A DNA stretch of 64,000 bases from Natrialba sp. SSL1 (GTDB taxonomy: Archaea; Halobacteriota; Halobacteria; Halobacteriales; Natrialbaceae). Under the pieces are notes generated by a model, which was not told where the DNA came from, searched no databases, and saw nothing but the letters and a program-made list of their open reading frames with translations. The stretch spans positions 62,001 through 126,000 of the forward strand of contig NZ_MASN01000030.1 in the NCBI RefSeq assembly GCF_001861355.1. The letters run 5' to 3'. Positions 7,708 through 8,938 of the stretch are shown here, one piece after another. Within the stretch, counting starts at the first letter, position 1. Each line of letters begins with the position of its first letter. The position numbers and the translations under genes are program-made.

Positions 7708-7786
7708 CTCGAGTCGTGCATCGATGCGGAGACGGGCGAAGACAGAGTCAGTGTCGAGACCAGCAACACGAACGGAGTGAGCGCCC

Positions 7787-8557
7787 GTGAGCGACGGCGA
7801 TAGCGACGAGTCGGTGGATCAGCCACCCGTCCTGCTCGTTCGCGACGACCGCGAGTTCCTCGTCCAGCCCGGCGAGGAGATGGGAACCGACCTCGGCATC
7901 CTCGAGGTCCCCGCAGATGTCGAACCGGGCGACACCGTCGAGACCCACCTGGACGAGGCGTTCCACGTCCGACGACTCCGCGGTCCAGATCTCTTTCACC
8001 ACTTCGAGCGCACGGGCGCACCGATGGTCCCCCGCGATATCGGACTCATCATCGGCGAGACCGGCATCGCTCGCGGCGACCGCGTCCTCGACACCGGCAC
8101 CGGCACCGGCGTCCTCTCGGCCACGATGGCCCGCGCCGGTGCGACAGTGGTAACGTACGAACGAGACCCCGACTTCGCCGATGTCGCCCGCGAGAACATG
8201 GAACTCGGTGGCATCGCAGACGCCGTCGATGTCCGGACCGGCGACCTGACCGAAGAACTGGAAGCGGGGGCACTCGAGTCCGCACTGTTCGACGTACTCA
8301 CCCTCGATACGGGTGACGCGGCCGAAATTGTCACGCACGCACCGGAACTGCTGGTCGAGGGTGGCTTCGTCGCGGTCTACAGCCCGTTCATCGAATCGAC
8401 GCGCGACGTCGTCGAGGCGGCCCGTGAGGCCGGGTTGGCGAATATCCGGACGCGAGAGACGATTCAGCGTGAGATGCAGTTCGACGACCGCGGCTCGCGG
8501 CCGTCGACGGCACCCGTGGGGCATACGGGGTATCTGACGATCGCTCGGAACGAGTAA
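7787..8557 (+). CDS. trmI: tRNA (adenine-N1)-methyltransferase TrmI
   Basis: SAM-dependent methyltransferase forming m1A in the T-loop of tRNA (positions 57/58 in archaea). 256 residues with GTG start. An N-terminal beta domain (VRDDREFLVQPGEEMGTDLG), then a Rossmann domain with SAM motif DTGTGTGVLS near 98-107, the acidic loop YERDPDFADVARENM and the TLDTGD motif IV-like stretch near 169-174. 79 bases after nac on the same strand. Its 3' end faces tfs across the hairpin array. Confidence 0.93.
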   Translation: MSDGDSDESVDQPPVLLVRDDREFLVQPGEEMGTDLGILEVPADVEPGDTVETHLDEAFHVRRLRGPDLFHHFERTGAPMVPRDIGLIIGETGIARGDRVLDTGTGTGVLSATMARAGATVVTYERDPDFADVARENMELGGIADAVDVRTGDLTEELEAGALESALFDVLTLDTGDAAEIVTHAPELLVEGGFVAVYSPFIESTRDVVEAAREAGLANIRTRETIQREMQFDDRGSRPSTAPVGHTGYLTIARNE

Positions 8558-8938
8558 TTCTCCGTCTCTCCCTCACGTCCCATTCCGAACTGCATTAGCC
8601 GGGGTGGACTCCGACCATCACGGCTGTTCACCGCGTGTGAACGGAGTGAGCGCGCGGGCCGACGACTGATGTGGAGACTCGCGAAGCGAGTCGGAACGGA
8701 AGGAGGAGTGCTTTTCATCGAAGCTAAGCGGGATCTTCGATCCCGCGAGGTCCGAGAGAGCTTCGCTCTCTCGAGATTTTTCCGAGTGTGGTCGCGAAGC
8801 GACCGTACATGGTTCGAGACACCGAAGGCGTCTCGTCATCGAGCGAAACCTCCGGTTTCGCGGACCTCGCGAATCTCCGATTCGCTCAGTCACGGAAGAC
8901 GCGAAGCGTCTTCCGAACGACAGAGAAAAAGTTCGGTT
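8558..8938. repeat. Array of short perfect hairpins between convergent trmI and tfs
   Basis: The 381-base gap contains at least nine inverted repeats: 8626-8642 (loop of five), then 8676-8692, 8728-8746, 8754-8772, 8790-8804, 8816-8834 (one A.C mismatch), 8844-8860, 8869-8885 and 8893-8915. Arms are 6-10 bases and, apart from the first, every loop is three bases: GAA or its complement TTC in six, TCC in two. Three hold the core GCGAAGC. A run of five T follows the fourth hairpin (8777-8781). No gene is evident here. Confidence 0.85.

Follow-up and report, generated by a model that had tools for sequence, protein, structure and literature searches.

The gap between the convergent genes trmI and tfs holds eight triloop hairpins in succession (8676-8915), which raises the question of what such an array is and what it could do where two genes meet. 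Both neighbours named in a preliminary description of the window (the whole 64-kb stretch of DNA that was analysed) were recognised again by Pfam, as a GCD14-type methyltransferase and a TFIIS zinc ribbon respectively, and the account of the array between them as non-coding and conserved in structure was likewise upheld. Its extent needed amendment: the span had been given as 8626-8915, of which the end is retained, but the triloop hairpins begin only at 8676, and within bases 8626-8660 there is one more stem (about 8631-8657), with a longer loop, which is part of the same element.

The cluster itself is real. Seven perfect hairpins (arms of at least 6 bases, loop of 3) fall inside 300 bases, against two at most per 300 in the rest of the window and a maximum of three in shuffled controls (the window shuffled 60 times by a Markov model, the region itself 5000 times), which rules out chance palindromes as the source of the array. 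The closing pair is C-G in all eight hairpins, and each loop is GAA or GGA when read on one of the two strands. A protein-coding gene was rejected in view of the lack of a conserved frame, length steps of 2 nt, compensatory changes in the arms and an insert of 53 nt. The word GCGAAGC is not enriched per se, its 575 + 559 occurrences in the genome being fewer than the 956 + 974 of a reversed-letter control. A unique local invention is excluded by further copies in the same and in related genomes, a search of the own genome with this region having returned four more places.

The DNA is haloarchaeal, and the named relatives of its family in a public scan are Natrialbaceae. Comparison with relatives divides the gap into a core and two inserts. 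The sister genome (L010) is near-identical to the window save for two clean insertions of 53 nt and 111 nt; its gap holds the core alone, with two triloop hairpins, and inserts A and B carry the other six of the eight. Both inserts are also missing in four further loci (L011, L012, L018 and L019), and these comparisons suggest that they were added later to the core in this species. The features of the locus, in order along the window, are as follows.

7787-8557, plus strand: trmI, tRNA m1A methyltransferase of the GCD14 family (Pfam GCD14), the convergent neighbour
8631-8657, plus strand: hp1, the 5' hairpin, CCGCG...CGCGG around GAACGGAGTGAGC
8656-8723, plus strand: 5' half of the core, GGGCCGACGAC-YGA-hp2(8676-8692)-GGA-R-GGAGGAGTGCTTTTCATCGAAG, with a covarying Y-R pair and a tandem G.A motif
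8676-8692: triloop hairpin GACTCGC(GAA)GCGAGTC, perfect, identical with hp2 of the core
8712-8716, plus strand (trmI sense): T4C tract, candidate termination site
8724-8776, minus strand: insert A, 53 nt, hairpins 8728-8746 and 8753-8773 joined by GAGGTC, missing in the sister species
8728-8746: triloop hairpin GCGGGATC(TTC)GATCCCGC, perfect, within insert A
8753-8773: triloop hairpin CGAGAGAGC(TTC)GCTCTCTCG, perfect, within insert A
8777-8809, plus strand: 5' strand of the closing stem, TTTTTCCGAG, with T5C inside, followed by apical hp3 (8786-8808)
8790-8804: triloop hairpin GGTCGC(GAA)GCGACC, perfect, the tip of hp3 of the core
8810-8920 (1-nt ambiguity, 8809/8810-8919/8920), plus strand: insert B, 111 nt, four hairpins
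8815-8835: triloop hairpin CGAGACACC(GAA)GGCGTCTCG, one mismatch, within insert B
8843-8861: triloop hairpin GCGAAACC(TCC)GGTTTCGC, perfect, within insert B
8869-8885: triloop hairpin GCGAATC(TCC)GATTCGC, perfect, within insert B
8893-8915: triloop hairpin CGGAAGACGC(GAA)GCGTCTTCCG, perfect, within insert B
8921-8935, plus strand: 3' side of the closing stem, CAGAGAAAAAGTTCG, which on the tfs strand is CGAAC-TTTTT-C from 3 nt after the stop codon
8939-9247, minus strand: tfs, TFIIS-like transcription factor S, 102 aa (Pfam Zn_ribbon_TFIIS), whose stop codon anchors the element

The element consists of a core of about 110 nt with a 5' hairpin, and it extends to 3 nt past the stop codon of tfs, a gene of the opposite strand. 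The consensus derived from the trmI-tfs gaps of relatives reads 5' hairpin, GGGCCGACGAC-YGA-hp2-GGA-R-GGAGGAGTGCTTTTNATC-GAANTTTTKC-CGAG-hp3-NNAGNGM-AAAANTTCG, and the motif of hp1 stands upstream of the core in most relatives (most of loci L052-L072). A second GAACGGAGTGAGC word, the sequence of hp1, occurs at the NAC-trmI junction (window 7770-7800) without the rest of the core.

A pattern for the middle of the core was found in 14 of 61 genomes and never in the reversed control. The covariance model R1, built from 15 copies, scores 69.9 bits at window 8656-8765 and matched 110 of the 117 genomes of the family, the highest number of copies per genome there being at least 31 among the best 32 candidates scored in each, and 174 of the 293 of the order; genome-wide numbers of hairpin clusters are given here as matches to models and patterns. 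Among the copies 98.8% of cells are paired (33-60% in slid controls) and 5 of 16 pairs have changed on both sides, and the pair beside the tandem G.A motif alternates between C-G (7) and U-A (7). The arms had been described as all different, a conserved shape and not a copied sequence; this is correct inside the array, but elsewhere the same arms recur with compensatory changes, which indicates a family of copies and not a shared shape alone. The condition proposed for refuting the first reading drew a split answer: relatives in which trmI and tfs adjoin are missing six of the eight hairpins, but many such clusters are present in the own and related genomes. There is hardly any doubt that we are dealing with a dispersed structured haloarchaeal element, of which the array is a copy enlarged by nested inserts. 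A cmscan of five loci against Rfam, including the window locus (core and inserts), yielded a chance-level match to mir-598 only (E=0.74), and a description of the core was not found in the literature searched, which covered a minority of the subscription journals. The multi-copy nature of the element, its anchoring to stop codons, the nested inserts, the transposon sites and the strand-symmetric loops were all unforeseen in the first reading of this locus.

The position of the core relative to genes is strict. An opposite-strand open reading frame of at least 60 aa ends nearby in 80 of 96 distinct copies, and in 78 of the 96, representing 27 gene groups, only 0-5 nt separate the TTCG end of the core from the stop codon of that frame, a spacing met by 116 of 3840 (3%) random positions in the same loci. 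Besides tfs, the anchored housekeeping genes include what we take to be those of an Lrp-type regulator, EngB, L10e, PAN, gyrase B (GyrB), thermosome and TrkH. About two thirds of copies have a convergent gene as upstream neighbour and about one third (11-13 of 42) a tandem one, and 16 of the 96 copies are not beside a stop codon. The same trmI-tfs pair occurs without the core in L021, L027, L030-L033 and L038, so the core is not essential there. Copies away from stop codons in L058 and L069 (both G003) and in L042 (own genome) share the flanks TACAGG..GTGCACTCACC / GGTATGCACCTGTA, which could pair; they are near-identical at unrelated sites and look like a mobile subfamily.

Variation within the core was also observed at three non-adjacent positions. 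In the stretch CTTTT-N0-ATCGAA-N1-TTTT...AAAA-N2-TTCG, the bases N0, N1 and N2 change together in a non-Watson-Crick manner (copies in L009-L288), with the combinations CGG 45, ATC 23, GAT 19 and AAT 5; the co-change might reflect a base triple or else a code by which subfamilies are recognised. Orthologous positions (for example tfs, EngB and TRAM-like loci) carry differing hp3 types and differing N0-N1-N2 subfamilies, which looks as though one gene had repeatedly had its element swapped for another copy. Another structured domain, GGCCGGGAG...GGGGAGGGCAGGC, lies upstream of the core in L034, L074 and L083, and in some species it has hairpin inserts of its own, GGAAGAGC..GCTCTTCC and GCGAAACC..GGTTTCGC.

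As to function, we lean towards a bidirectional transcription terminator or insulator, judging from the arrangement of T-tracts. The TTTTKC/GmAAAA of the closing stem places a T-tract on each strand: the tfs strand has T5C at 8930-8925, 8 nt past the stop codon, and the trmI strand has T4C at 8712-8716 and T5C at 8777-8782, inside the structured region. Intergenic termination in Haloferax volcanii has the T-stretch with a final C as its motif, and a hairpin terminates too (PMC7237163), so that T-tracts on both strands favour a terminator or insulator, and the element probably marks the end of transcription. Converging or overlapping transcripts would be halted before they invade one another. 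Insert A lies in the stem junction and insert B at the base of hp3; since both spare the T-tracts and the closing stem, they would be tolerated. The Haloferax volcanii terminators (PMC7237163) resemble the element in the T-stretch followed by C after a stop codon with a hairpin nearby; they differ in forming no dispersed family with a covarying multi-helix fold. Against this reading, the T4 tracts of the family consensus are short in comparison with strong T5C terminators, and with about one third of upstream neighbours in tandem a purely convergent-pair role does not fit all copies. The relatives whose trmI-tfs gap lacks the core and the 16 copies away from stop codons count on this side too.

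The chief competing explanation is a structured RNA transcribed in the direction of the anchoring gene. The core would then be an independent structured non-coding RNA, or the structured 3' UTR of the plus-strand gene, with a binding partner of its own, and its place by the stop codon would reflect antisense control of the anchoring gene. RNA folding energy is lower on the plus strand in all 83 copies compared, and still in 76 of them once composition is corrected for; this set includes orthologs, and its copies are not independent; the plus strand of the window (trmI sense, tfs antisense) is accordingly the better structured. Single mismatches in hp3 point the same way, being G.T or T.G five times and A.C zero times, though three of the five come from one lineage. 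The conserved unpaired motifs GGGCCGACGAC and GGAGGAGTGCTTTTNATC, the tandem G.A motif, the interchangeable hp3 types, the recurring internal loops and the non-Watson-Crick co-change of N0, N1 and N2 all speak for an RNA, but Rfam offers no match and about one third of copies have no plus-strand gene directly upstream. That the strand which folds better runs antisense to the anchoring gene is compatible with a terminator and, equally well, with an RNA toward that gene. We consider this RNA reading less likely than the terminator or insulator; a bidirectional terminator and a structured RNA had both been proposed from the start, and both stay live.

The inserts lead to a second population of repeats. 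Insert B has the layout TGGTTCG-hp_a-TCATCGA-hp_b-GGACCTC-hp_c-TCAGTCACG-hp_d-CGAACGA, its ends TGGTTCG/CGAACGA forming a short imperfect inverted repeat of 7 nt in which six of seven positions pair, and it left no target duplication relative to the empty site of L010 beyond the 1-nt ambiguity. The corresponding model R2 of what we call module B scores 109.4 bits at the window copy. Insert A is an inverted partial relative, the linker GGACCTC being present on its reverse strand, to which R2 gives a weak match (E=1.3e-4), and it recurs in L041, L082, L083, L091, L107 and L110.

Module B is recognised by the conserved linkers TCATCRA, GGACNTC and TCAGTCACG, a pattern with 24 copies in 15 of 80 genomes and none in the reversed control. 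Its model matched 108 of the 117 genomes of the family and, at E<=1e-5, 149 of 292 of the class, where weak matches may share the hairpin layout only. Paired cells amount to 97.6% (slid controls within 31-60%), and in 11 of 35 pairs both partners have changed. Its hairpins b and c gave no strand preference, with four G.T/T.G against three A.C/C.A mismatches, so the claim of a structured strand is limited to the core. The 31 copies measured are 104-113 nt long, mostly 105-113 and nearly all odd, as would follow from arms growing or shrinking by whole pairs.

Module B is present in three kinds of site. At many core loci it enters the base of hp3 at the identical point each time. Elsewhere it occupies the loop of a palindrome, GCCTCGGGGTCAAG^CCCCGAGGC, whose empty form stands at the 3' end of tnpB in L046 (own genome). 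The palindrome GGGGTCAAG^CCCCGAGG is empty in L002, L046 and L101 and filled in L080, L104, L109, L111, L156 and L164; the module stands within an exact CCTCGGGGTCAAG palindrome at six distinct loci and within variant palindromes at others. Homologs of tnpB adjoin three sites (L092/L145, one site; L093/L142, one site; and L164), and in L076, the third kind of site, module B is in frame within an apparent tnpB gene. Related inserts with two hairpins (51 nt) were also seen in frame at the same tnpA codon in L043 (own genome, G000:C60) and L076, between ..PK and YR.., where they encode unrelated stretches of 17 residues; the IS200-type tnpA protein of L043 matches Y1_Tnp.

From its sites, module B looks mobile and resembles the SMR-A repeats of Haloquadratum. 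The short mobile repeats SMR-A of Haloquadratum walsbyi (HqIRS42/43/55; PMC3119063) have prominent terminal inverted repeats and target the terminal palindromes of IS605-type elements and of PATEs (palindrome-associated transposable elements). Judged by the published description, both are about 110 bp, show no target duplication, reach many copies per genome and lie inside IS605-type terminal palindromes and IS605-type genes (PMC3119063). Module B differs in its fixed point within a stop-codon element, its four covarying hairpins and its inverted ends, which are there but short (7 nt) and imperfect. Rickettsia palindromic elements (PMC10969869) are likewise in-frame palindromic inserts in protein genes, as the modules are in tnpA and tnpB; unlike them, the modules have transposases as hosts, and other copies sit in a structured element and at transposon ends.

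The core itself invites a similar comparison. PATEs, whose near-terminal palindromes are related to those of IS605-type transposons, are also short, non-coding, palindromic, multi-copy and haloarchaeal, and host SMR-type inserts (PMC3119063); the core, in contrast, keeps a single orientation at its stop-codon anchor and covaries in its internal structure, and the copies examined have no IS605 transposase nearby. The bacterial REP/BIME, ERIC and REPIN families share the dispersed, palindromic, intergenic character and the location by gene ends, whereas the core is archaeal, has a multi-helix fold and a fixed spacing of 0-5 nt from the stop codon, and bears no known sequence relation to them.

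Hairpins on one strand are the type of substrate used by Y1 enzymes. Together with the modules A and B in IS605-type palindromes and in tnpA/tnpB, with near-identical copies at unrelated sites of one genome (L058 and L069) and with four identical scores in G089, this would fit a selfish REP- or PATE-like repeat mobilised in trans by a Y1 transposase of the IS200/IS605 type, the site after the stop codon being a tolerated insertion. We consider it unlikely: the single orientation with 0-5 nt spacing in 78 of 96 copies is too tight for tolerated insertion, the same genes carry the core across genera, and neither tnpA nor tnpB lies within some 1.5 kb of the core at loci L052-L072 and L112-L141. 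The idea that the core is the end of an IS605 element was rejected, since no transposase lies by those same loci. Quite improbable is a structure acting after the stop codon in the mRNA of the anchoring gene, on ribosome release or mRNA stability, for which the 0-5 nt spacing speaks and to which the better folding of the opposite strand is opposed; ribosome termination structures after stop codons have been described in bacteria (PMC7518266).

Whatever the element does, its loops point to a process at the DNA level. The 102 triloops comprise GAA 29 and TTC 27 as well as GGA 7 and TCC 18, and the counts of a loop and of its reverse complement agree overall (Spearman 0.80, p=3e-6). Inversion of the loop is seen even where related species have identical arms at one and the same gene, pointing to loop flipping at the DNA level; such inversion has been described as a footprint that template switching leaves during replication (PMC8794818). 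Given the strand symmetry of the loops, the perfect arms are probably maintained in part by a copying process at the DNA level, whatever the RNA does, and hairpin-templated template switching on single-stranded DNA could keep the shape while the letters change. The same perfect Watson-Crick arms and strand-symmetric loops would suit a protein-bound chromosomal element of DNA architecture with no role at the transcript level, a reading made very improbable by the strand asymmetry of the core, its U.G bias and its stop-codon anchoring.

Overall, the core, the inserts and the loop symmetry may be drawn together, with some reserve, into an uncatalogued class of structured element that is widespread in haloarchaea and marks the 3' boundaries of housekeeping genes, its hairpins perfected, flipped and multiplied by hairpin copying at the DNA level and mobile modules nesting inside. 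To our knowledge, it is mainly in bacteria that dispersed repeats have been linked to stop codons. A family carried by most of the haloarchaeal genomes examined, constant in orientation and in its spacing after genes such as those for tfs, L10e, PAN and thermosome, would provide a concrete, testable signal for archaeal gene ends. Kept arms with flipped loops make up a natural data set on whether compensatory changes arise by selection or by template switching, and the in-frame modules of tnpA and tnpB present the same hairpin units entering proteins. The element thus illustrates how hairpin DNA may spread while retaining its shape.
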